The notes below the pieces were generated by a model. That model had not been told where the DNA came from, did no database searches, and saw only the letters and a list, made by a program, of their open reading frames with translations. Positions 17,914 through 61,392 of a stretch of DNA of 64,000 bases are shown one piece after another. Source of the DNA: Acidobacteriota bacterium (GTDB lineage Bacteria; Acidobacteriota; Terriglobia; Terriglobales; SCQP01); contig SCQP01000001.1 of the NCBI GenBank assembly GCA_004299485.1, positions 496,001-560,000 of the forward strand, read 5' to 3'. Numbering within the stretch: position 1 is the stretch's first letter; each line of letters opens with the position of its first letter. A program made the translations under genes and the position numbers.

Positions 17914-17930
17914 GCCCCAACGGTCCGCGT

Positions 17931-18010
17931 ACTGAAATACTGATTTACTGAAATACTGATCTACTGAAATACTGATCTACTGAAATACTGATTTACTGAA
18001 ATACGGATCA
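17931..18010. repeat. 16-bp tandem repeat, five copies (ACTGAAATACTGATCT family)
   Basis: Five consecutive units of ACTGAAATACTGAT[TC]T; the last is degenerate (ACTGAAATACGGATCA). Each unit has two TGA triplets and the period is not a multiple of three, so the array stops translation in all plus frames. It fills the gap between convergent genes, and its last three bases are the stop codon of the minus-strand gene. The same unit with similar 5' flank (CCCCA-CGG-C-CG) recurs twice at 23300-23331. Confidence 0.95.
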
Positions 18011-19264
18011 TCGTGCTGGCACCGGCAGCGGATGGTCCAGCCGGATTTGTAGCACCGTCCCTGCCGGCAGCGTGATATCCCGGTTGTGCATCATGATCTC
18101 CGCCAGCGTCGCGCCCAACGCGCCATATGCCGCGCCGTCGGCCGCTCCTTTACCCCCGCCAAGCAGCGCCCCAATGCCCGCGCCGGCAGCGCCGCCTTTG
18201 AGAGCGTCGGCAGCCTTGTGGGTATTGCCGCCTGTGATCGTCCCCTCTTCGTTTTTGCTCATCGCCGCCGTGCCAACGCCAATCGTTTCCGCGCTCAGGT
18301 CAATCGGCGTCTGCCCAGGTAGCGTCAGTGTGTCGTAGCGCAAATTCATATCGGCGTGACCCCCAAAATGGCCGCCGCGCTGCAGCGAGGCGATCGTGCC
18401 TTGAATGGTCGCGCCGGACGGAATCGCCACCGTGCGGCCCACGTAAACCGGCACCGTGACGGTGAGGGCGAAGGTCTCGCCCGCGATCCCGTTTTTAGTA
18501 CTGAGTGCCTGATTCAAGGTCCCTTGGATAGTCGTGCCCTGCGGAATTAGCAGGCTGCCGCCCGAGTCGGCAGCCATGTTGACCGGCACCGTGCCACCGG
18601 CGCTGGCGGGCGCCTGCCGCCCGCCGATCGAGGAATCGAATAACTTGTGATGGAAGCCCGCATCATAGCCCAGCGCAAAACCATCCTGAAAGGCCGACTG
18701 ATACGCAGCAAGCGATCCCAGCGCAGGCACGTAGCCGGCTTGCGCGGAGTTGTAAACGGCGTGGCCGGTCAGGTCGTAGGCGTGACCGGCGTTCGCATCC
18801 GTCTGCCCCAAATCGTACCCCTCCTGATAGCCATTGGCGGTGCCGGCCTGGCTCAGCGCGCTTGCCGGCGCTGCGGGAGCAGCGGCAGGTGCCGCTGCCG
18901 GAGCAGCAACCGCCGGCGCATCGGCGCACGACGCAGTTGCGGGCGCGGGCGCAGGCGTATTCACCGACGCGGTGCGCCGCGCGTAGCCATCCCCGTAGCC
19001 GTCGTTGAAGCCGCTTTGAAAGCCGGCGCGATAATCCGTGCAGCTTCCGTCCGCGGCGTTGTAACCCGCCGACGCCAACTGATAGGCCGAAAACTTGTGC
19101 GGGTTCGCGGCGCGGCCGGCAGCATGATCCGCGCGCCCGAGGCGATACGCGGTGCTATATCCGGCTGCATAGGACGGATCGACGCCGGTCTGCGCGGACA
19201 ACGGCAAGGTGCCCAGCAAACCGGCAGCGAGCGCGATGGTCAGAATGAGGCGTGAAGGCGACAT
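18008..19264 (-). CDS. Exported glycine-zipper protein with G-Y/F-x-x-G repeats
   Basis: A 418-residue secreted protein, function unknown. A signal peptide (MSPSRLILTIALAAGLLG, cut near LSAQ) is followed by four short repeats of the pattern aromatic-x-x-G-aromatic-x-x-G-x-x-D (YAAGYSTAYRLGRADHAAG, FQSGFNDGYGDGY, YQEGYDLGQTDANAG, FQDGFALGYDAG), a Pro/Ala linker, a beta-rich middle region, and a glycine-zipper (GAAGAGIGALLGGGKGAADG) of the kind that packs in or on membranes. The ATG at 19264 has AAAGGAG seven bases upstream. It follows the 19276 gene, so the two may be co-expressed envelope proteins. Confidence 0.8.
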   Translation of the reverse strand: MSPSRLILTIALAAGLLGTLPLSAQTGVDPSYAAGYSTAYRLGRADHAAGRAANPHKFSAYQLASAGYNAADGSCTDYRAGFQSGFNDGYGDGYARRTASVNTPAPAPATASCADAPAVAAPAAAPAAAPAAPASALSQAGTANGYQEGYDLGQTDANAGHAYDLTGHAVYNSAQAGYVPALGSLAAYQSAFQDGFALGYDAGFHHKLFDSSIGGRQAPASAGGTVPVNMAADSGGSLLIPQGTTIQGTLNQALSTKNGIAGETFALTVTVPVYVGRTVAIPSGATIQGTIASLQRGGHFGGHADMNLRYDTLTLPGQTPIDLSAETIGVGTAAMSKNEEGTITGGNTHKAADALKGGAAGAGIGALLGGGKGAADGAAYGALGATLAEIMMHNRDITLPAGTVLQIRLDHPLPVPAR

Positions 19265-23272: not shown

Positions 23273-23299
23273 AGTCTCGCGCGCCCCAGCGGCCCACGT

Positions 23300-23331
23300 A
23301 CTGAAATACTGATCTACTGAAATACTGATCT
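23300..23331. repeat. Second locus of the 16-bp repeat, two copies
   Basis: Two exact units of ACTGAAATACTGATCT, 27 bases after the stop of the IPT/TIG gene. The sequence just before (GCGCCCCAGCGGCCCACGT) resembles the flank of the five-copy array after gatA, so the repeat and its flank form one dispersed element. Confidence 0.9.
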
Positions 23332-23407
23332 ACGGTTGCTGCCGCTTGACTTTGCTGCCCGGGCCTTCCATGATGAGGCCAAATACGTGCGCCAGGAGGA
23401 AAGATCA

Positions 23408-26230: not shown

Positions 26231-26277
26231 CATCTTCCGCCGGCACGCCTCCCCGGGGCCTCGCCCGCAACTCCGGT

Positions 26278-26386
26278 GGCGGCAGCCTGGAGGAGCCCCG
26301 AGCGCCAGCGGGCGGACCCTGCCGGGAATCGAAACCCGCACTCCAGCGACCAACGGGAGCGACCCGGGCAAAAAGTGGCGAGCCAC
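26278..26386 (+). repeat. 109-bp dispersed repeat, copy A
   Basis: First of three copies of an element that begins GGCGGCAGC[CT]TGGAGGAGCC and ends GTGGCGAGCCAC. It lies 47 bases downstream of tRNA-Ala. Copies agree at about nine positions in ten. No coding potential or terminal duplication is visible; the 3' end has the short inverted repeat GTGGC-GA-GCCAC. Confidence 0.9.
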
Positions 26387-26620
26387 ACAACCTCCACGCC
26401 TTTTTCCCCATCTAAGTAGTTGTAGCCATCCTCCGCACCGCCGCTCCTCAGCCGCGCTGCACCGGGCAGGCCCGCCGCATACCGTGGGCGCGCACCGTCG
26501 ACTCCTCACCCGAACTATGTCCTCCCCCCGTGGCCACGCCGCCGAGCCTTGGCTCACGCCTTACCACCCATCACTAGTCACGGCGCGTCCCGGGCGCCTG
26601 TTCCATTCGCTGTTCCATTG

Positions 26621-26729
26621 GCGGCGGCTTGGAGGAGCCCGGAGCGCCAGCGGGCGGACCCTGCCGGGAATCGAAGCCCGCACTCCAAGCGACCAACGGG
26701 AGCGACCAGAGCAAAAAGTGGCGAGCCAC
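26621..26729 (+). repeat. 109-bp dispersed repeat, copy B
   Basis: Second copy, same orientation as copy A and 234 bases beyond it. It differs by a few substitutions and small indels (for example TTGGAGGAGCCCGG in place of CTGGAGGAGCCCCG). The sequence between A and B is not similar, so this is not a simple tandem. Confidence 0.9.
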
Positions 26730-26768
26730 CTGTGCCACGTCCCGCATCCAAAAACCCCCAGCAAACAC

Positions 26769-30850: not shown

Positions 30851-31833
30851 GTACAGCCGGACCGATACAGCCGGAAATGGAGATCGCGCGGCCCGAGGCC
30901 GGCGCCGGGCGGGAGGCCGCGCGCCGGGGGCCAGGCGCGAGTGCGCGCAGCATGTTGCAGATGGCCTGGCTGAACGTGCTGCTGGCCTATCGCATCCGGA
31001 TCGCATTCTTTTTTGTCTTTATCTGGCCGATGATGTGGTTCTTCATCTATTTCCTCATCTTCGGCGGGATGAGGCCGCTGGCGGTGGCGGCGCTATTCGG
31101 ACCGCTGATCAGCCTGGAAATCATCAGCAACGCACTGTTCGGATTTTCGATGCAGATGGTGACCATGCGCGAGCGCGACATGCTGCGGCGGTATCATCTG
31201 GCGCCCATCAGCGCCACCATCATGGTCGGCAGCCGGATGCTGAGCAGCTATTTGCTGTTCATGCCCGTGGTGGTGCTGCAGTATGTGCTGGCAGTGTGGT
31301 GGTTCCATATGCCGGTGGCCGGCAATCTGCTGGTGCTGTTTATTGTTTTCTCGCTGGCGTTTCTGGCGATCAGCGCCATTGGGTTGATCATCGCCTGCGT
31401 GGTGGACACGGTGCAGGAAGCGACGGTGTGGAACAATCTGCTGTTTTTTGCGCTGCTGTTCCTGACGGGCACGACGCTGCCGCTGATGCAATTGGGCCAC
31501 TCGATTCAGCGGATCGCGCTCTTCCTGCCACCGACGCTGATGATCTTGTCGAGCGCGTTTGTGATGCTGGGCGGGACGGGGTTTGGCGCCAATTGGCCGG
31601 AACTGTTCGGGTTGCTGATCATTATGCTGGCGTGCTGGGCGCTGGGCGTCGCGCTGTTTCGCTGGGAGAAAGAGAAAAAGACCAACCGGCGGGATCGCCT
31701 GCGGGCGGCGCTGGCGCTGATTCCGATTCTGGCGGTGGGCTTGTGGCTGAATACCTCACCGGGATTTCAGCGCGTCTATCAGACTTATATGCAGCAGTCG
31801 GCGGCGGCGTTCAACGCGGCGGTGAAGAAGTAG
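30847..31833 (+). CDS. ABC-2 type transporter permease
   Basis: A 328-residue inner-membrane partner of the ATPase at 29918. The first 38 residues are hydrophilic. About six membrane segments follow, starting at IAFFFVFIWPMMWFFIYFLIF; the ABC-2 family core is the region of VTMRERDMLRRYHLAPIS to LFLTGTTLPLMQL. A seventh hydrophobic stretch (AALALIPILAVGLW) near the C-terminus places an extra 30 residues beyond the usual end. Substrate unknown. Confidence 0.9.
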   Translation: MSTAGPIQPEMEIARPEAGAGREAARRGPGASARSMLQMAWLNVLLAYRIRIAFFFVFIWPMMWFFIYFLIFGGMRPLAVAALFGPLISLEIISNALFGFSMQMVTMRERDMLRRYHLAPISATIMVGSRMLSSYLLFMPVVVLQYVLAVWWFHMPVAGNLLVLFIVFSLAFLAISAIGLIIACVVDTVQEATVWNNLLFFALLFLTGTTLPLMQLGHSIQRIALFLPPTLMILSSAFVMLGGTGFGANWPELFGLLIIMLACWALGVALFRWEKEKKTNRRDRLRAALALIPILAVGLWLNTSPGFQRVYQTYMQQSAAAFNAAVKK

Positions 31834-31865
31834 TTCACAGCTTACAGTTCACAGTTCACAGTTGA
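31833..31865. repeat. ACAGTTC-type short repeat after the permease stop
   Basis: Four imperfect units of TTCACAG[TC]T directly after the stop codon. A longer relative lies at 52583-52617, just before the UPF0182 start codon. Confidence 0.75.
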
Positions 31866-32009
31866 AGGCTCAGGGGGCCGAGACAAGAGGGGCCGCTTTT
31901 TGGGTATTCGTGTGCTCACCTGAGGGAAGCAGGCTTCTCCGGCCGATCGGGAAATTGAGCGAAAGGCGCGGGGGCGGGAGTGGCATGCGGTTTGCGGAGG
32001 CAAACAGGC

Positions 32010-43911: not shown

Positions 43912-45290
43912 AGGGCTACTTTTTAGTGGTCTGGGTGCCGGAGCGGCCCTGGGGCACGGCCCGGCCAGCCGTGCGCGAACAGGAGTTTCAGAGCTGGATG
44001 CTGCGGGAATTGGAGCAGGTCTCCGACCGCTGCCAGCCGTTGCCGCCCGACCACTGGTTGTTGGATTTGAGCGGCATGGAAACCTGCCTGGGGCCGGCGC
44101 CGGCGATCGCACGGCAACTGGAACGGCGGTTGTGCGAGCAGGGATTGACGCCACGGATGGGAATGGCGCCGACGCGTACCGCAGCACTGCTGGCGGCGGA
44201 AGCGGGCATGGCGCCGATACTGGATGATGCGCCGGCGGCGGTGCTGGCGGCGCTGCCGCTGAGCACGTTACAGGCGCTGAGCGATTGCGGTCCGGCGGCG
44301 GCGGCCTGCCTTGATGTCTTTGCGCGCTGGGGACTGCGCACGCTGGGCGAAGTGGCGGCACTGCCACGGCGGGCGCTGAGCGAGCGGCTGGGACGCGCCG
44401 GACTGGCGTGCCAGCGCTGGGCGCGGGGCGACGACGAGGGGTTGATGCTGCCGGGCGCGCCTGCGCCTGAGCCGGCGATCTGCGAGCAGACTTTTGAACC
44501 GGCACTGGAGGGTTATCTGCCGCTGCTGCCCTGGCTCGACGGTCAGGTGCACGCGCAAGCGGCGGAGTGGGAACGGCACGACCGGGCGCTGGCGTGGTGT
44601 GAGCTGGCGCTGGGGTTGGAGCAAGACCGGGCATTCCCTGGGCTCCGCCTATGGCAATGGCGCTACGCGCCGCCGCTGCCGCACCGCGATGCGCGGCGGT
44701 GCCTGCGGCAACTGGAGACGGCGCTGGCGCTGGGACCACCGGCGGCGCCGATTGCGACGGCACGGATCGAATTCCGGCTGCTGCGGCCGCGGCGCACGCA
44801 GGCGGGATTGTTCGGCGATGCGGCGGTAGAAGAAGAAAACCGGGAGCGGCTGCTGGCGCGGCTGCGGGTGCTGCTGGAGGATCCGGAGGGCCAGCAGTGC
44901 GGCTCGCCGCGACTGCGGGACTGGCACCGGAGGGATGTGTTTGCGATGGCGCCGTACGCGCCGGAACAGGGGTCAGGGGCCAGGGGCCAGGGATCAGGGG
45001 GTGCACGGCTGACCCTGCGGGCGAGGAGGCCGGCAGTGGCGATCAGGATGGAGATGGCGCGGCTGCCGGTGCAGGCCGATGGATTCAGCCCGGTGGGCGC
45101 GATGTGCTATTTGCCGCAGCCACGAAGGATCCAGCGGGCTTGGGGACCGTGGCGCTGCTCGGGAGCATGGTGGAGCGATGGCGCCTGGAGCCGGGATGAG
45201 TGGGATGTGGAATTTGCGCCGGATGAACGATATCGGTTGCTGTATGACCGGCAGGCGCGGCGGTGGTTTCTGCTGGGCGAGTACGACTGA
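43908..45290 (+). CDS. imuB: ImuB, catalytically dead Y-family polymerase-like protein
   Basis: A 460-residue Y-family fold without the metal-binding acidic residues: the usual DMDAFFASVE is KGYFLVVWVPERP, and the second acidic site reads LLDLSGMETC. This fits ImuB, an adaptor that brings DnaE2 to the clamp. A clamp-binding-like motif TQAGLFGD lies at about residues 296-303. The C-terminus ends YDRQARRWFLLGEYD, typical of ImuB. A short Gly/Gln/Ser-rich segment (EQGSGARGQGSG) is encoded by a GGGGTCAGG-type simple repeat. GTG start within the imuA stop. Confidence 0.9.
   Translation: MKGYFLVVWVPERPWGTARPAVREQEFQSWMLRELEQVSDRCQPLPPDHWLLDLSGMETCLGPAPAIARQLERRLCEQGLTPRMGMAPTRTAALLAAEAGMAPILDDAPAAVLAALPLSTLQALSDCGPAAAACLDVFARWGLRTLGEVAALPRRALSERLGRAGLACQRWARGDDEGLMLPGAPAPEPAICEQTFEPALEGYLPLLPWLDGQVHAQAAEWERHDRALAWCELALGLEQDRAFPGLRLWQWRYAPPLPHRDARRCLRQLETALALGPPAAPIATARIEFRLLRPRRTQAGLFGDAAVEEENRERLLARLRVLLEDPEGQQCGSPRLRDWHRRDVFAMAPYAPEQGSGARGQGSGGARLTLRARRPAVAIRMEMARLPVQADGFSPVGAMCYLPQPRRIQRAWGPWRCSGAWWSDGAWSRDEWDVEFAPDERYRLLYDRQARRWFLLGEYD
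44968..45001. repeat. GGGGCCA/GGGGTCA tandem tract inside imuB
   Basis: Four units of the period-8 word AGGGGYCA (with one ATC variant) in frame within imuB. The tract encodes a flexible Gly-Gln-Ser linker and does not disrupt the frame. Confidence 0.75.
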
Positions 45291-45301
45291 GGAGGCGCGG
45301 G

Positions 45302-48300
45302 GTGTTTCTGGAGCTGCACGCGGCGAGCGCCTTCAGTTTTTTGCGCGGCGCTTCCCTGCCCGAAGAACTGGTCGAGCGCGCGGCGGCGCTGGAGATGCCG
45401 GTGCTGGGGCTGATCGACGGCGATGGTTTTTACGGCGCGCCCCGGTTCCACCTGGCGTGCCGGCGGGCGGGCGTGCGGCCGCTGTTTGGCGCGGAGATCA
45501 CGCTGGAGGATGGCGCGCGGCTGCCAGTGTTGGCGGCCAGCCGTGCGGGGTATCGCAGTCTGTGCCGGCTGCTCAGCCGCATGCACCTGCGCGGCGCGGC
45601 GCCGGGCGTAGGGCGGATGCAGTACAGCGAATTGGCCGAATTGGAAGAGGTGATTGCGCTCAGCGGCGATGAGGAGGGTCCGCTGGCGTGGACGCTGCGC
45701 GCGGGCGGCACGGACGCGGCGCGAGAACGGCTGGAGCAGTTGGCGTCGGCCTTCGGGAGCGGCAATCTCTATGTCGAGCTGCAGCGGCATTACCTGCGCG
45801 AGCAGGAAGAGCGCAACCGGGCGGCGATCGGGCTGGCGCGCGCGCTGAAGCTGCCGCTGGTGGCGACCAACGGCGTGCGCTACGCCACGCCGGCGGCCCG
45901 GCCGGTGCTTGATGTGTTCACCTGCCTGCGGCTGCATACGCGGCTCGAGTCAGCGGGACGGAAACTGGAACCGAATGCGCAGCGGTTTCTGGCCGCACCG
46001 GCGATGGTGGAACGGCGCTTTCGCGACCTGCCCGAAGCCCTCGCGCATACGGCGGAAATTGCCGCGCGCTGCACATTCACGCTCGATGATCTGGGCTACG
46101 AATTTCCGCAGCCGCCGGTGCCGGAGGGACACACGCCGCAATCGTGGCTGCGGGAGCAGACCTGGCGCGGAGCACGCCGGCGCTATGGCGCACTGCGGGC
46201 CGAGGTGCGCGCGCAGCTCGAACACGAGCTGGAGATCATCGGCAAGCTCAAGCTGGCGGGGTATTTTTTGATTCTGGACGGCATCATGGACTACTGCCGG
46301 GCGCACGGCATCCTGGCGCAGGGGCGCGGCTCGGCGGCCAACAGCGCGGTGTGCTACAGCCTGGGCATTACCGCCGTCGATCCCATCGGGATGCAGTTGC
46401 TGTTCGAGCGGTTTTTGTCGGAGGAGCGCGGCGAGTGGCCCGACATTGATCTGGATTTGCCCTCGGGCGAGCTGCGCGAGCAGGTGATTCAGTACGTGTA
46501 CGGACGCTATGGGCAGGGGACAGCCAGCGCTGCAGCGATGACAGCCAATGTGATCACCTACCGGCCGCGTTCCGCCGCGCGTGAAGCCGCCAAGGTGATG
46601 GATTTTCCTGAAGCCGTGCAGGCGAAGCTGGCGCAAATTCTGAGCGCAGCGGGAGGGGTGCTCGATCTGCCGAGCTGGCAGGAAACCCTGCAGCAGCGCG
46701 GGCGGGCGGCGCGCTTTCCGCCTGCAGCCGCCGACGTGGCGCCGGCAGTGGCGGCGGGGCTGCGCCAGGCGGGGTTCGATCCGGAACATCCGCAGATGCT
46801 GCGGTTTCTGTACGTGTGCCAGGCGATGCAGGATTTGCCGCGCCATCTGGGGCAGCACTCGGGCGGCATGGTGCTGTGCGCGGGGCCGCTGAGCGAAATT
46901 GTGCCGCTGCAGCCGGCGGCGATGCCGAAGCGGGTGGTGATTCAGTGGGACAAGGAAGACTGCGCGGCGCTGGGGCTGATCAAGGTCGATCTGCTGGGAC
47001 TGGGGATGATGGCGGTGCTGCAGGATACGCTGGTAAGCGTGCGCGACCGGCTGCCGCGGGCAGTGGGCAGCGCGGCCACGGCCGATCTGGACTGGCTGCC
47101 GCCGGAAGATGCGGACGTGTACCGGACGCTGCGGGCGGCGGATACGGTGGGCCTGTTTCAGGTGGAGTCGCGGGCGCAGATGGCGACGCTGCCGCGCATG
47201 CAGCCGCGGCGGTTCTACGACCTGGTGATTGAAGTGGCGATTATCCGGCCGGGGCCGATCACGGGCGATCTGGTGAATCCGTATCTGCGGCGGCGGGCGG
47301 GCGAGGAGGAGGTGCGGGTGCCGCATCCGCTGCTGGAGCCGATTCTGCGGCGCACGTTAGGCGTGCCGCTGTTTCAGGAACAGCTTTTGAAAATGGCGAT
47401 GACGGTGGCAGGGTTTACCGGCGGGCAGGCGGAAGAGCTGCGACGGGCAATGGGCTTCAAGCGCAGTCAGCAGCGGATGGCGGAGATCGAGCGGCAACTG
47501 CGGGCGGGCATGAGCGAGCGCGGCATTGACGCGGCCGCGGCGGATGAGATCATCCGTTCGATCACCTCGTTTGCGCTGTACGGTTTTCCGGAATCGCACG
47601 CCGCCAGCTTTGCCCTGCTGGTATACGCCAGCGCGTACCTGAAGCAGTATTTCCCCGAGGAGTTTCTAGCGGCGATGCTGAACCATCAGCCCATGGGGTT
47701 TTACCATCCGGCGACGCTGGTGCGCGACGCGCAGCGGCACGGGGTGGTGGTGCTGCCGGTATCGGTGGCGGCGTCGGAGTGGGATTGCACCGCCGGGCGG
47801 CTGGCGCGCGGGCGCGCGGGGCGAGCGGTACGGCTGGGGCTGCGCTACGTGAACGGGTTGCGCGAGAGCGTAGGCAGGCAAATCGCCGAAGAACGGCGGG
47901 CGCGGGCGTTTACTTCGTTTGAGGATCTATGCCGGCGGGTGGCGCTGAATGCCGAGGAAGCACGCCGGCTGGGGGAGTTGGGCGCCTGCAAGGCGTTTGG
48001 GGCATTGACTGGCGCGGGGCCTGGCGTGGCTGCGCCACACCACCCGCTTGACGCTCGGCCGGGCCGGGGACCCCGAGAGCCCCAACCCGGCCTCCGGGCG
48101 ACGCGGCGCACGGCGCTGTGGCAGATTGAGGCGGCGCAGCGCGCGCCCGGCTCGCTCTATGCACCGTTGCCGGAGCCGGGCATGGAGCCGGATGCGATCA
48201 GTCCGCTGCCGGAGATGGACACGCGCGAGCGGATGGAGGCGGACTTTGCCGCGAGCGGCCTGACGCTGGGGCCCCATCCACTGGCATTTGAGCGGACGCG

Positions 48301-48640
48301 GCTGCGACAGCAAGGCTATGTGACCGCGGCGGAGCTGGCAGGGCTGCGGCATCAGCAGAAGGTCGCCATTGCCGGCGCGGTGATTGCGCGGCAACGGCCA
48401 GAAAATGCCAAAGGCGTGGTGTTTTTGTCGTTGGAGGACGAGACCGGCATCAGCAACATCATCATCTGGCCGCAGGTATATGAGCGCTATCGTCTGGAGT
48501 GCCTGGGCGCGGCGCACCTGGAAATTCACGGCCGCCTGCAACGGCAGCGCGGAGTGATTCATGTGCTGGCGGAAACGCTCGCGCCGCTGCACACCGGCGC
48601 GGCGCTGCTGCCGGCCAGCCCGGCGCGGGATTTCCGCTAA
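45302..48640 (+). CDS. dnaE2: Error-prone DNA polymerase DnaE2 with in-frame repeat insertion
   Basis: C-family translesion polymerase of 1112 residues that copies damaged DNA with ImuA and ImuB. N-terminal PHP domain (LHAASAFSFLRGAS), polymerase palm with the catalytic PDIDLDLPS (about residues 380-388), and GFPESHAASFALLVYASAYLK in the fingers region. The C-terminus has an OB-fold (KVAIAGAVIARQRPENAKG). Around residues 901-932 it carries the segment ALTGAGPGVAAPHHPLDARP... encoded by a palindromic element shared with the next gene, between the helix-hairpin-helix KAFGA and RRTALWQ. The GTG start has GGAGG six bases upstream. Confidence 0.93.
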   Translation: MFLELHAASAFSFLRGASLPEELVERAAALEMPVLGLIDGDGFYGAPRFHLACRRAGVRPLFGAEITLEDGARLPVLAASRAGYRSLCRLLSRMHLRGAAPGVGRMQYSELAELEEVIALSGDEEGPLAWTLRAGGTDAARERLEQLASAFGSGNLYVELQRHYLREQEERNRAAIGLARALKLPLVATNGVRYATPAARPVLDVFTCLRLHTRLESAGRKLEPNAQRFLAAPAMVERRFRDLPEALAHTAEIAARCTFTLDDLGYEFPQPPVPEGHTPQSWLREQTWRGARRRYGALRAEVRAQLEHELEIIGKLKLAGYFLILDGIMDYCRAHGILAQGRGSAANSAVCYSLGITAVDPIGMQLLFERFLSEERGEWPDIDLDLPSGELREQVIQYVYGRYGQGTASAAAMTANVITYRPRSAAREAAKVMDFPEAVQAKLAQILSAAGGVLDLPSWQETLQQRGRAARFPPAAADVAPAVAAGLRQAGFDPEHPQMLRFLYVCQAMQDLPRHLGQHSGGMVLCAGPLSEIVPLQPAAMPKRVVIQWDKEDCAALGLIKVDLLGLGMMAVLQDTLVSVRDRLPRAVGSAATADLDWLPPEDADVYRTLRAADTVGLFQVESRAQMATLPRMQPRRFYDLVIEVAIIRPGPITGDLVNPYLRRRAGEEEVRVPHPLLEPILRRTLGVPLFQEQLLKMAMTVAGFTGGQAEELRRAMGFKRSQQRMAEIERQLRAGMSERGIDAAAADEIIRSITSFALYGFPESHAASFALLVYASAYLKQYFPEEFLAAMLNHQPMGFYHPATLVRDAQRHGVVVLPVSVAASEWDCTAGRLARGRAGRAVRLGLRYVNGLRESVGRQIAEERRARAFTSFEDLCRRVALNAEEARRLGELGACKAFGALTGAGPGVAAPHHPLDARPGRGPREPQPGLRATRRTALWQIEAAQRAPGSLYAPLPEPGMEPDAISPLPEMDTRERMEADFAASGLTLGPHPLAFERTRLRQQGYVTAAELAGLRHQQKVAIAGAVIARQRPENAKGVVFLSLEDETGISNIIIWPQVYERYRLECLGAAHLEIHGRLQRQRGVIHVLAETLAPLHTGAALLPASPARDFR
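48002..48096 (+). repeat. In-frame palindromic element, copy 1 (inside dnaE2)
   Basis: This 95-bp sequence matches the copy at 48997-49091 at 86 of 95 positions without gaps. It holds two hairpins: GTGGC-TGC-GCCAC, and a long GGCCGGG..CCCGGCC stem with two mismatches inside. With the next base it encodes 32 residues in frame. Confidence 0.93.
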
Positions 48641-48654
48641 ACTGAGCCTCAGCT

Positions 48655-49398
48655 ATGTGTGGACGCTTCACACTGCGCTCGGACGGCAACGCGCTGGCGC
48701 AGCATTTCGAGTTGGACGCGGCGCTGGCGGCGGCACTGCCGCCGGCGCGCTACAACATTGCGCCCACGCAGACGATTCCGGTCATCCGCTGGAACGCGGA
48801 TAGCGGCAAGCGGGAACTGGTGATGCAGCGCTGGGGACTGGTGCCGCACTGGGCGAAAGATCGGAAGCCGCTGCCGGCGTTATTTAATGCGCGGGCGGAA
48901 ACACTGGCCACCAGGCCGGCGTTCCGCGAGGCGTTGCGCGCGCGGCGCTGCCTGATTCCTGCCGACGGCTTTTACGAATGGAAAGCGGTGGGCAAGGCAT
49001 TGACTGGCACGGGGCCTGACATGGCTGCGCCACGCCACCCGCTTGACGCTCGGCCGGGCTGGGGGCCCCAGGAGCCCCAGCCCGGCCTCCGCGTGAAGCA
49101 GCCGTGGTTTGTGCACCGGCCCGGCGATGGACTATTCGCCTTTGCCGGACTGTGGGAGGGTGAAACCTGCACCATCATCACGCGCACACCCACGCCGCAA
49201 ATGGCAGCGCTGCACGACCGCATGCCGGCCATTCCTACACCCGGCGATTACAGCGCCTGGCTGGATCCGGTGCGCAGCCGCGCCGAGGAATTGCTGCCTT
49301 TGCTCGACCATCCGCCCGAGCTGGAGATCTTCCCAGTGCGGCCGCTGGTCAACCGCGCCGCGGCCGACGGGCCCGAGTGCGTGATGCGAATGTTATAA
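48655..49398 (+). CDS. SRAP/HMCES-like DNA-protein crosslink protein
   Basis: SOS-associated YedK/HMCES homologue, 247 residues, that caps abasic sites in single-stranded DNA through Cys2. The N-terminal MCGRFTL (Cys2 exposed after Met removal), PARYNIAPTQ, MRWGL-like MQRWGLVPHW, NARAET, CLIPADGFYEWK and AGLWE motifs are all there, as is PTP/H-R-MPAI near residue 185. Residues about 115-146 come from the palindromic repeat, inserted between FYEWKAVGK and KQPWFVHRP, a loop that varies in the family. It lies 15 bases after dnaE2, so is part of the same damage-response operon. Confidence 0.93.
   Translation: MCGRFTLRSDGNALAQHFELDAALAAALPPARYNIAPTQTIPVIRWNADSGKRELVMQRWGLVPHWAKDRKPLPALFNARAETLATRPAFREALRARRCLIPADGFYEWKAVGKALTGTGPDMAAPRHPLDARPGWGPQEPQPGLRVKQPWFVHRPGDGLFAFAGLWEGETCTIITRTPTPQMAALHDRMPAIPTPGDYSAWLDPVRSRAEELLPLLDHPPELEIFPVRPLVNRAAADGPECVMRML
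48997..49091 (+). repeat. In-frame palindromic element, copy 2 (inside the SRAP gene)
   Basis: Second copy, in the same reading frame as copy 1. Its main hairpin is perfect: a 13-bp stem GGCCGGGCTGGGG / CCCCAGCCCGGCC with a ten-base loop, preceded by the partial hairpin TGGC-TGC-GCCA. Confidence 0.93.
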
Positions 49399-49638: not shown

Positions 49639-52578
49639 GCCGCCGCTGAGGGCTTTTTTGAGGGCCTGCTGGGCGGCCTGCAGCTCAGCGCCGGCCTCGG
49701 CAAATTTGCCCTGGGCGGTGAGCTGCTGGTAGCGGCTCAGGTGCGCCTGTACCGATTCCAGAATGGCGCGCGGCAGCTTGGCGACGGTCGCAGGCGGGCC
49801 CGTGGCGGGGACGCCGGAAGTCGCGGCATTGGCGCTGGCGACGACGTTGGACTGGTTGGTGTCGCTGGGGCCGGGCTGCTGGGCGAGCGTGGCGATGGCG
49901 GTAGGCAAGTCATCGCTATAGACGATGCGATTGCCAACGGCAAGGACCATTTTCTTCAGCTCGGGCAACTGGGCCTGCGGGGCCTGAATGTAGATAGGTT
50001 CGACGTAGATGAACGTTCCGCCGACCGGCAGCACCAGCGTGGTGGCGCGGATCACACGGCTGCCTTCCTGATTCCACAGGCTCAGATCCTTGCTGATGTC
50101 GCGGTTTTGATCGACGCGGCTTTCGATTTGCAGCGGACCGTAGACCAACTGCTCCTTGGGCAGACGATAGAAGATCAACTGGCCGTAATGAGCGGGATCG
50201 CAGCGTGCGGCGACCCAGGCGATGAGGTTGTCGCGGCCGTGGCTGGTGAACGGGACCAGCAGGACAAATTCGGCCTGGCTGTCGCCCGGCAAGCGCAGCA
50301 TGACGTAGTAGGGCTTGGTGGGCTGACTGGTTTCCTGCATCACCACCTGCTTGGCGATGTCCCACTGGTCTTCCTTGTTGTAAAAAACCTGGGGATCGCG
50401 CATGTGGTAGAGGCGATAGATCTGCGCCTGGGTTTCAAACAGCGCTTGCGGATAGCGGATGTGCGCCAGCAGACCCGTGGGCATAGCCGAGCGTGGCAGG
50501 AACAGATGCGGGAAAACGGCGCGATAGGCGGCAAGGATCGGATCCCTGGGGTCGAACACGTACATATGGACCGTGCCGTTATAGGCGTCGACGGTGACCT
50601 TGACGCTGTTGCGGATGTAGTTCAGATTCTCGTCGCCGACGGCGGTGGATTCCGAGTAGGGATGGAGACTCGAGGTCGTGTAAGCGTCAATCATCCAGAA
50701 CAGATGACCGTGGCTGTCGATGACCAGATAAGGGTCGGAATCGTAGGTCAGGAAGGGTGCAACGGTTTCGACCCGGTCCAGGATCTGGCGGTGCAACAGT
50801 ATGCGGGTGCGGGGCGTGAAGTAGTGCGAGAGGATGACGTTGGGATCGTTCTGTTGAATCGCGGCGGCGAGGCGCAGGAGCGGATTGGAAAGCAGAATTC
50901 CGGCGGTGCCGTGGTAGGTGGTGTAGGCGTTGTCGTCGCCCTTGGGGTAGTCGAACTCGTCCTGCTGGGTATCGACGTAGACGGGGAGATTGGTGTCCTG
51001 AGCGAAGTACAAGCCGCCGCGGGTGATCTGGAAATCCTTGAAGGGACCAGTGGGCGGAGCATCCCTGAGGATCATGACCGGCTCGCCCTCCGGCGTCGAG
51101 GTGTTGACCATGGCGGCGACGGCGCCAAAGCCATGGGTATATTCGAGCCGCAGGTTCACCCAGGTCTGCGCGGATTGGGGCAGGCGGCTGGTGTCAAGGG
51201 CGCGGGCGGCGATCAACACCTGGCGGACGTGGCCATCGATGTTGTAACGATCGACGTCGACATGGGGAAAATCGTAGTAGGGGCGGAGGGCCTGGAGCTG
51301 GTTGGCGTCGGCCTGGAATGGGCCTTCATCCCAGAGGCGGATGTTGTCAGCCGTATCAGGATATTTGGCCAGGTCGAGCTGCACGTCGCTGTTGGGCGTA
51401 AAGGCTTCTTCGTGCGAGGTCTGCTCGAGGTTGTAGGCCATGCGGGTGGCCTTGATGTGGTCGGCAATGAAAGGCGTTTCGAGGGCCAGTTCGTTGGGTG
51501 CGACATAGAAACGCAGGACGGCGGCCTGCAGAATCGAGGGCAGAATCGCCAGGCCAAGGAACACCAGAATGACCGTACCCGGCAGCCAGCGCGGCGTGTC
51601 GCGCGGCACCCAGGGCGCGATGGCTTCATCCCAGGCGTTGGGCGGCTTGTGGCCAAAATGGCGGTCACCGAACTTCGGTGGGCCACGGCGCGCGAACAGG
51701 ATGAGGAGGACGAGAGCGATGGCGCCGGCAATCTGCAGCCAGAGCAGCGGAATGCCCCAGTTGATGTCGACGAAATCGGCGCCGGTCAAAAAGTTGTGCT
51801 GCGAATACAGCAGCGAGTAACGCGCGAAGAACTGTGATACGGCGAAGATGATGAGCAGCACGATGGCGCCGGCGCGCACCAGGTTGCCGAGATTGACGGA
51901 GGGCGGACGCGGCACTTCGGTAGAACTGCCGGCGTAGCCGCGGCCTTCCATTTGCGCCATAACGCGCGCGCGCATCTCGCGCATGCGTTCGGCAGAAGTT
52001 CCCGCAATGGAGGTGATGGCGGCAATGAGCACGCCCAGCACGGCCAGCGTTGCGACCCAGGCCCAGATCATCTCGTAGAAGGGCAGCCGGAACATGTAGA
52101 ACGCCAGGTCGTGATGGAAGATGGGATCGGTATAGGCGCCGGTGGAGTGAGCGCCCAGAAAGAGCGCGATGGTCCAGGGATTGACGAGGTTGACCGAGGC
52201 CAGAATGCCAAGCAGCGCAGCGACGGGATAGCCCACGATACCGAAGAGCGAGGTGCGGGCAAGATCGGTACGGCAGTGGCGGCGCGCCAGCGCGAAGACG
52301 ATGACCAGAGCGAGCGCGGCGACGATGGCGGCGGCGGTTTGCGGCAGCCAGCGGATACGCAGGTACTGCCAGAAGGTGGGCAATTGGCCCAGGGCACGCC
52401 ACCAGGCCCAGTCGATCCAGAAGCTCGAGCCTTCGATCAGAATGACGAGCGCCGCGATGGCGATGCCGATATCGCGCGTGAGCGCGGCGCCTTGCAAGCG
52501 GCCGTAGTGGCGCTTCATGCGTACCTGCGAGGCCACGACCACAAGGACGATGGCGATAAAGACGAGGGCAGCTTCCAC
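49627..52578 (-). CDS. UPF0182 family large membrane protein
   Basis: A 983-residue inner-membrane protein with seven or so hydrophobic helices in the first 340 residues (for example VFIAIVLVVVASQV and IAIAALVILIEG), then a large periplasmic-type domain with GYTHGFGAVAAMVNT-like blocks (LEYTHGFGAVAAMVNTS) and IRYPQALFETQAQIYRLYHM, which mark UPF0182 (COG1615). The function of this family is unknown. The C-terminal 70 residues form an Ala/Gln-rich helical tail, common in the family. Confidence 0.88.
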   Translation of the reverse strand: MEAALVFIAIVLVVVASQVRMKRHYGRLQGAALTRDIGIAIAALVILIEGSSFWIDWAWWRALGQLPTFWQYLRIRWLPQTAAAIVAALALVIVFALARRHCRTDLARTSLFGIVGYPVAALLGILASVNLVNPWTIALFLGAHSTGAYTDPIFHHDLAFYMFRLPFYEMIWAWVATLAVLGVLIAAITSIAGTSAERMREMRARVMAQMEGRGYAGSSTEVPRPPSVNLGNLVRAGAIVLLIIFAVSQFFARYSLLYSQHNFLTGADFVDINWGIPLLWLQIAGAIALVLLILFARRGPPKFGDRHFGHKPPNAWDEAIAPWVPRDTPRWLPGTVILVFLGLAILPSILQAAVLRFYVAPNELALETPFIADHIKATRMAYNLEQTSHEEAFTPNSDVQLDLAKYPDTADNIRLWDEGPFQADANQLQALRPYYDFPHVDVDRYNIDGHVRQVLIAARALDTSRLPQSAQTWVNLRLEYTHGFGAVAAMVNTSTPEGEPVMILRDAPPTGPFKDFQITRGGLYFAQDTNLPVYVDTQQDEFDYPKGDDNAYTTYHGTAGILLSNPLLRLAAAIQQNDPNVILSHYFTPRTRILLHRQILDRVETVAPFLTYDSDPYLVIDSHGHLFWMIDAYTTSSLHPYSESTAVGDENLNYIRNSVKVTVDAYNGTVHMYVFDPRDPILAAYRAVFPHLFLPRSAMPTGLLAHIRYPQALFETQAQIYRLYHMRDPQVFYNKEDQWDIAKQVVMQETSQPTKPYYVMLRLPGDSQAEFVLLVPFTSHGRDNLIAWVAARCDPAHYGQLIFYRLPKEQLVYGPLQIESRVDQNRDISKDLSLWNQEGSRVIRATTLVLPVGGTFIYVEPIYIQAPQAQLPELKKMVLAVGNRIVYSDDLPTAIATLAQQPGPSDTNQSNVVASANAATSGVPATGPPATVAKLPRAILESVQAHLSRYQQLTAQGKFAEAGAELQAAQQALKKALSGGSPH

Positions 52579-52582
52579 GGAT

Positions 52583-52617
52583 TACAGTTTACAGTTTCCA
52601 GTTCACAGTTTACAGTT
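52583..52617. repeat. ACAGTTT-type short repeat between UPF0182 and aroDE
   Basis: Four or five imperfect units of ACAGTTT/CCAGTTC, period 8 to 9, just upstream of the UPF0182 start codon. It is a relative of the tract at 31833. Confidence 0.75.
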
Positions 52618-52652
52618 CGGACTCGGGAGGCAGGCGGATGGCAGGGAGGGTC

Positions 52653-57123: not shown

Positions 57124-57201
<78 letters not shown>

Positions 57202-57260
57202 CCCAACCAAGCACTTGCGACCTGCAAAAGTTTCCTTGCGACGTGGTATATCCGCTCCGG

Positions 57261-60525: not shown

Positions 60526-60727
60526 ACCCCCATTGGACCCCCAATAAGGGTTCCCGAGGGTGGTTTTGGGGGTCTACGAGCCATCTGTGCCCGTGTTTTC
60601 AATAGGTTACGAACCCGAGAAGCCCTCATAACCCAAAGGTCGGTGGTTCAAATCCACCCCCCGCAACCAAGACAATCAAGCGCTTGCGGGATTTTGAGCC
60701 TCTCCTGCAAACCCCCCAAAACCCCCA
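60526..60727. other. Arm-like ACCCCCA words around the right repeat
   Basis: ACCCCCA occurs at 60526 and 60537 before the right-hand repeat and ACCCCCCA/ACCCCCA at 60711 and 60721 after it. Short repeated words on both sides of a core are typical arm sites for tyrosine integrases. A further 11-base core-like match CCCAAAGGTCG lies at 60509-60519. The rest of 60424-60624 has no gene that I can support. Confidence 0.35.
60625..60670. repeat. 46-bp direct repeat, right attachment-site-like copy
   Basis: Perfect copy of the last 45 bases of tRNA-fMet plus one, 3469 bases from the left copy, with the tRNA 5' half missing. It closes the segment. Confidence 0.9.
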
Positions 60728-60850
60728 TTAAGGAAAGTCCCCAACGGGAACGCGCCTGAAAGCGTTCTCAGGCGGTGCTTCCGACCGCTTTCTCCGGCCC
60801 CAGCACGATCTCCACTACCTCGCAGGCGCGCTGAGGCTCGCGCCAATCAA

Positions 60851-60960
60851 GTGGCTCGCCACTTTTTGCCCTGGTCGCTCCCGTTGGTCGCTGGGAGTGC
60901 GGGCTTCGATTCCCGGCAGGGTCCGCCCGCTGGCGCTCAGGGCTCCTCCAAGCTGCCGCC
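60851..60960 (-). repeat. 109-bp dispersed repeat, copy C (inverted)
   Basis: Third copy of the repeat seen at 26278 and 26621, here on the minus strand. Its first bases coincide with the end of the cytochrome gene: the GGSLEEP codons and the TGA stop are within the repeat. It lies 180 bases beyond the right tRNA repeat. Confidence 0.9.
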
Positions 60961-61392
60961 ATGGGGGCGAACCGAGGCGGCGCCGAGCGACTTCAGGTAG
61001 GTGATGATCTGCCACCGCTCGGCAGGTGGGAGCTTCGACCAGTCCGGCATCCCACGCCGCACCACCCCGTTCGACAGGATCCAGAAGAGGGCGCCCGGGG
61101 AGGCCAAGAGAATCGGCTCCGCGCGCAGGCTGGGGCCTCGCCTTCCTCCCATTGCCGTGCTGCCGTGGCATTCGGCGCAATGCTGTTGAAAGAGCTTTTT
61201 CCCGGCGGCCGGTGCATTGAGATTGTTGACCATAGGGTTCGATTTGGCTCGTGCGCCGGCGGGAACTTTCGCCAGCGCCGCATAGACGGCTCCACTATTC
61301 CCTGGCTTGGCAGATTCCGCCCGCTGTGCCAACCCCAACGACCCATTCAGAAGCACCAAAAATGCGATCGCGACATAAGCCATCGCCTTCAT
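60937..61392 (-). CDS. Exported c-type cytochrome, repeat-derived C-terminus
   Basis: A 151-residue single-heme protein: signal peptide MKAMAYVAIAFLVLLNGSLG, heme motif CAECH (about residue 76), distal Met in VVRRGMPDWSK. The fold is a short cytochrome c (PF13442-like) and it would transfer electrons in the periplasm. Its ATG overlaps the stop of the outer-membrane-like gene (ATGA), so the two work together. The last seven residues and the stop derive from the 109-bp repeat; the original C-terminus may have been a little longer. Confidence 0.88.
   Translation of the reverse strand: MKAMAYVAIAFLVLLNGSLGLAQRAESAKPGNSGAVYAALAKVPAGARAKSNPMVNNLNAPAAGKKLFQQHCAECHGSTAMGGRRGPSLRAEPILLASPGALFWILSNGVVRRGMPDWSKLPPAERWQIITYLKSLGAASVRPHGGSLEEP

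Follow-up and report, generated by a model that had tools for sequence, protein, structure and literature searches.

Two copies of one palindromic sequence in adjacent genes

The window analyzed here, a stretch of 64,000 nucleotides, raises the question of how two adjacent genes came to carry nearly the same palindromic sequence inside their reading frames. The hosts are dnaE2 (error-prone DNA polymerase III alpha; 45263..48640, + strand) and the gene of an SOS response-associated peptidase (SRAP, YedK/HMCES family; 48655..49398, +). The limits of both copies were fixed via empty sites and other copies in the genome, giving 96 bp at 48004..48099 (+) in dnaE2, with ~32 residues added, and 96 bp at 48999..49094 (+) in SRAP, with 32 residues added. 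Spaced 995 bp apart, the two were 90.6% identical over 96 bases, forming a long direct repeat of 107 nt at 88% when the flanks are counted. A 27-base core occurred twice in the window, with zero occurrences expected by chance. Both copies are read in the same frame (A-L-T-G-...), yielding the peptides ALTGAGPGVAAPHHPLDARPGRGPREPQPGLR and ALTGTGPDMAAPRHPLDARPGWGPQEPQPGLR. In the SRAP copy, hairpin 2 (49052..49087, +) has a 13-bp stem with arms at 49052-49064 and 49075-49087, and the hairpin 1 region (49008..49042, +), composed of a GCGGG...CCCGC closing stem and an inner stem-loop, is degenerate; in the dnaE2 copy the 13-bp stem is interrupted by two mismatches. An earlier sequence-only reading of this DNA had reported a near-identical repeat in the two genes, a common frame, undamaged DnaE2 and SRAP family motifs on either side and a 13-bp hairpin in the SRAP copy. 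The repeat was present at that place, the window translations and folding bore out the frame and the hairpin, and the flanking motifs were found intact.

The window contains further repeats. A tandem 16-bp repeat, TACTGAAATACTGAT[CT], occurs at 17914-18012 and 23283-23333 with the common leader GCCCCARCGGYCC, and a tandem AGTTYACAGTTCAC-type repeat at 31832-31877 and 52572-52631. A second, unrelated interspersed repeat of ~114 bp (26272-26386, +; 26614-26732, +; 60848-60961, -) has copies 92-98% alike that end in ...AAAAAGTGGCGAGCCAC, without an Rfam match; pieces of it flank palindromic element copies at C16:248333, C3:1645 and C12:36267. The tRNA-Met gene (57124-57200) is intact, and its 3' part (57156-57219) is repeated with 94% identity at 60625-60688, 3.5 kb downstream, where no tRNA gene was called, a fragment as left by integrated elements.

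Copy number and distribution

At least 68 copies with a readable body were interspersed on both strands of the source genome (G000; 3.30 Mb, 22 contigs, 98.8% complete), spread over most of its contigs. With the 98-bp SRAP copy as query, at least 40 long matches were obtained; the core pattern matched 43 sites (26 forward, 17 reverse; backward control 0) and the left-end pattern 74 sites (control 0). One left-end match (C1:170012) proved to be a false positive on alignment and was excluded. The 68 copies were sorted into a main subfamily (~46) and related subfamilies (~22), truncated ends being extra.

The element was found in four same-genus genomes and, within a family-level sample, in genera g3 and g5, making three genera; it was not found in genera g2, g4 and g6 of that sample and was absent from all 46 sampled genomes of a sister family in that order. 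Of 115 copies, 93 had their nearest copy in the same genome (42 on average and at most 59 after shuffling), a sign that the element amplified separately in each lineage. These comparisons demonstrate, at the level of sequence, a dispersed and lineage-restricted element amplified lineage by lineage.

Anatomy of the element

The conserved 5' end, TTGAYTGGCGCGGG[GC]CC, is followed by hairpin 1, CCCGCTT, hairpin 2 and finally CGCGT or GCTGCGC. Hairpin 1 has a GCGGG/CCCGC closing stem surrounding an inner stem-loop, and hairpin 2 has up to 13 bp. The termini (TTGACTGGCGCGGGG...CGCGT) are conserved, with at best imperfect terminal inverted repeats (CGCGGGG left, CCCCGCG right). Across 32 diverse copies, 88% of the cells of the two-hairpin structure were paired (shuffles 82, slid versions 33-46), double changes were seen in 13 pairs and 52 cells (shuffles 16, slid controls at most 23), and the covariation score was 0.169 versus 0.071. 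Such compensatory changes in paired cells demonstrate that both predicted hairpins persist despite drift of the sequence. Without guidance, RNAalifold recovered hairpin 1 together with the core part of hairpin 2. A three-way junction closed by both ends was disfavored by folding, two separate hairpins fitting better, and a known structured RNA was rejected in the absence of an Rfam match. At C8:280563, C12:144516, C14:128170, C16:42203 and C20:52355, a foreign palindrome (CGTAAACGACGCACTGTGTCGTTTACC or similar) replaces part of hairpin 1, apparently one element nested in, or swapped into, another.

A long form was also present, 192 bp in some copies of the source genome and 189 bp in many copies of G001, G003 and G004. 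Long and short forms start and finish alike (...CCCCCGCGT), and the 3' half as query found only few copies in the source genome. Alignment of the two forms demonstrates that the 96-bp form corresponds to an internal deletion of a 189-192-bp parent with both ends kept, as in MITEs. The lengths 96, 189 and 192 bp are each divisible by three; whether this reflects selection or luck has not been shown.

Intragenic copies and their host genes

Intragenic copies were called by a codon model that had the window as training data and scored the flanks alone, ignoring the element. The same coding frame continued on both sides of 21 of the 68 copies, with no element-borne stop in any of the 21, and empty sites revealed three more (dnaE2, a RimI-like acetyltransferase and an ABC ATPase), so that ~24 of at least 68 copies, about a third, are intragenic and in frame on both sides. 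The intragenic fraction was 31%, versus 49% at random window positions (p = 0.002; ~0.6 times random), which suggests that insertions in genes are purged, but weakly. By the same flank test 7 of 48 copies in relatives were intragenic; the intragenic habit is strongest in the source genome.

Hosts were named from Pfam/NCBIfam. They include DnaE2, SRAP, UvrA, SMC, PheT, RNase R, phosphopentomutase DeoB, TreZ, a NirA-like reductase, a RimI-like GNAT, a Fic protein (two copies), an ABC ATPase, three VPS10/BNR proteins, DPP IV-like, DoxX-like, GT87 and PMT_2 proteins, a histidine kinase, a C45 hydrolase and two unnamed proteins. A gamma-glutamyltranspeptidase with the insert near its start codon is likely one more. 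The hosts at C7:4801, GT87, the histidine kinase, PMT and others were identified without an empty site. SMC, PheT and UvrA are core genes, and PheT is commonly essential. The Fic-domain gene (C1:76154-76814) holds two copies in frame, a 192-bp copy and a copy of a related short form.

Read in the sense orientation, the consensus meets TGA in two phases and only the third is stop-free; in the antisense orientation all three are open. An intragenic copy thus leaves the frame of its host intact, since the unit length is divisible by three and four of the six readings are free of stops. Of the main-subfamily copies in sense orientation whose host is clear, five use the open phase; a sixth (C16:313502, DoxX-like host) uses a closed phase, but its TGA has mutated to TGC. 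Most antisense copies use the phase encoding GRAGAPGAPSPAERQAGGVAQPRQAPRQSI. Within the Fic gene, the 192-bp copy has a +1 indel compensated by a -1 indel. Together with domains recognizable on both sides, the phase use, the mutated TGA and the cancelling indels argue that the hosts are apparently working genes.

Empty sites and inferred tolerance by the host proteins

Orthologs from the same genus or family lacked the insert in 11 hosts (SRAP, DnaE2, one VPS10 protein, the ABC ATPase, the NirA-like reductase, TreZ, RNase R, the RimI-like protein, UvrA, DeoB and a C6 protein). The insert was absent from DnaE2 of G004, G006, G007 and G009, and, for SRAP, from 77 measured loci and seven family relatives. 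At the SRAP site the Trp-to-Trp spacing is 42 here and 9-17 (mode 10) in the 77 relatives, from many phyla, a difference of 32 extra codons. The net DNA gain was 96 bp in SRAP, TreZ and DeoB and ~93 bp in RNase R. In UvrA, DeoB, SMC and PheT the inserts appeared as gaps or unaligned stretches against solved structures.

Neither the junctions of 45 copies nor the empty sites showed a target-site duplication, and no target consensus was seen in the element flanks. TTGAC was not present beforehand in the empty sites, and insertion of the IS200/IS605 type beside an existing TTGAC target was rejected on this basis. The junctions are known only to within a codon because the closest comparisons, with same-genus relatives, are ~70-80% alike. 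The before-and-after comparison demonstrates, as inferred from alignment, that a 96-bp unit was inserted precisely and with its ends conserved; movement itself was not observed.

An AlphaFold2 model of SRAP (30 sequences) had a mean pLDDT of 86.6, with most residues outside the insert above 90. The insert (residues about 115-146) had a pLDDT of ~50 and was modeled as a loop joining strands 105-112 and 147-154, and the family-invariant residues are retained on both sides. By this prediction the insert occupies an exposed, tolerated site in SRAP, the one host modeled.

The sequence-only reading had likened the repeat to palindromic elements that invade coding sequences, such as the Rickettsia RPEs, a proposal that would have failed if all orthologs carried the residues or if no further copies existed. 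Both possibilities were looked at and neither holds: DnaE2 and SRAP orthologs lack the ~32 residues, and a search of the genome and its relatives supported the proposal with dozens of copies (at least 68 in the genome), many of them in frame in unrelated genes.

Origin of the insertions

We consider it highly likely that the repeat is a palindromic mobile element, MITE-like and non-autonomous, which has proliferated within this Acidobacteriota lineage and whose insertions fall in genes as well. Copies in exposed loops would survive, the Gly/Ala/Pro/Arg-rich stretch being tolerated as an unstructured loop, and other insertions in genes would be purged. Mobility may depend on an enzyme that recognizes a folded single strand and is supplied in trans; this enzyme would now be gone from the genome or belong to an untested family. 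Profile searches of the source genome gave no match to PF01797 (Y1), PF02371 (IS110), PF01609 (DDE_Tnp_1) or PF00078 (reverse transcriptase), all matched in control genomes, and no autonomous partner with matching ends was found among these four families. IS110, DDE_Tnp_1 and reverse transcriptase were accordingly rejected as the mover. A Y1 gene could still lie in the missing 1-2% of the assembly.

The two window copies, so close together in neighboring genes, could also be explained by gene conversion or local duplication that copied an ancient shared segment between dnaE2 and SRAP. This explanation is already refuted by dispersal, with at least 66 other copies on most contigs; in addition, orthologs without the insert exist and the SRAP copy resembles distant copies more than its neighbor (94% to copies on other contigs versus 91% to the dnaE2 copy), leaving it with next to no credence. 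On present alignments the window pair is two independent insertions and not a local duplication. The sequence-only reading had left the choice between chance and local spread within one operon; local spread was not supported by the comparison, and the adjacent position is probably chance because ~24 copies are intragenic, although a repair-gene bias is not excluded. Another candidate is a GTAG- or CGTC-type REP moved by a RAYT (Y1) transposase since lost from the genome. The element shares with REPs a small palindromic doublet and intragenic copies in DnaE2 and UvrA (PMC3733652), some family members have Y1 genes, and by coincidence the opposite strand of the main subfamily has CGTC next to hairpin 2. 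Nevertheless, the alignment has no GTAG tag, no CGTC conserved across subfamilies and no AT at the stem base, PF01797 was found neither in the source genome nor in the same-genus carriers G001 and G004, and the six Y1 loci retrieved from relatives lack element-like ends. A RAYT origin was rejected on the latter two grounds, and we regard this explanation as unlikely.

Less likely still is retention of the element for a benefit to its hosts, above all DNA-repair genes, where positive selection would act on it as a regulatory RNA segment or as a protein linker. Its structure is conserved by covariation, DnaE2, SRAP, UvrA and SMC are among the ~24 hosts (a repair bias without statistical test), and the same bias was noted elsewhere by Di Nocera et al. 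(PMC3733652). On the other hand, phase and orientation vary by host, so that the peptide differs, the hosts are otherwise unrelated, genes are depleted of insertions, and same-genus orthologs manage without the insert. A joint reading, in which unit lengths and stop-free readings were selected for life as a translated passenger in essential genes and the repair genes DnaE2, SRAP, UvrA and SMC were colonized again and again, independently in several phyla, because their changed activity increases the mutation rate, is likewise unlikely as a whole. For the mobile element preferred here, same-genus empty sites supply about a dozen before/after protein pairs, which make it directly testable whether the inserts are neutral, harmful or useful.

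Comparison with known systems

The literature searched contained no description of a comparable family in Acidobacteriota, which is not proof of absence. Bacterial MITEs resemble the element in being short and non-autonomous, with a short form made by internal deletion; their inverted ends have an at best imperfect counterpart in the element, and here no target-site duplication was visible and no partner transposase was found among the four families searched. Palindromic elements derived from IS200/IS605 share hairpins near the ends, the lack of target duplication and a 5' TTGAC-like start; by contrast, TTGAC here lies inside the inserted unit and not in the target, and a Y1 transposase was not found in the genome. 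GTAG/CGTC REPs likewise have hairpins and doublets, and part of their copies fall in coding regions; Di Nocera et al. 2013 (PMC3733652) describe uvrA and dnaE2 as intragenic hosts. A CGTC REP is defined by the CGTC tag and an 8-9 bp stem starting with AT pairs (PMC3733652); neither this combination with a conserved tag nor a GTAG tag 5' of a hairpin was met in the element alignment. The Acidobacteriota element is longer than these REPs and has defined ends, and no RAYT was found in its genome.

Rickettsia RPEs measure ~100-150 bp, with nearly half in ORFs in R. conorii (PMC10969869, PMC3767692), and the genes they occupy include those of DNA polymerase III alpha and PheT (PMC3767692, PMC10969869). 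The R. japonica paper describes Rickettsia orthologs that carry RPE inserts at the same sites (RPE sources PMC3767692, PMC10969869), whereas many of the Acidobacteriota insertions are missing even within the genus. The element also differs in its phylum, in its fixed 96-bp unit and in its pair of parent and internal-deletion forms. With a sequence relation untested and an observed range of one family outside Rickettsiales, we do not file it as an RPE. The Rickettsia-like behavior inferred by the sequence-only reading holds; a limitation of this kind of element to Rickettsia does not, as in-frame REPs occur in DnaE2 and UvrA genes of other phyla (PMC3733652). Invasion of coding sequences by palindromic elements is thus not peculiar to reduced intracellular Rickettsia or to tagged REPs. 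Like RPEs, the element is palindromic, sits in frame in many unrelated genes without disrupting them, at a site predicted to be exposed in SRAP, and meets the length and fold criterion with its 96- and 189-192-bp forms. The hosts correspond as well: DnaE2 and PheT match the DNA polymerase III alpha and PheT of RPEs, and in a lineage with a 3.3-Mb genome an apparently unrelated element has again entered DnaE-family, UvrA and PheT genes, possibly because large multidomain proteins may offer more tolerant loops.
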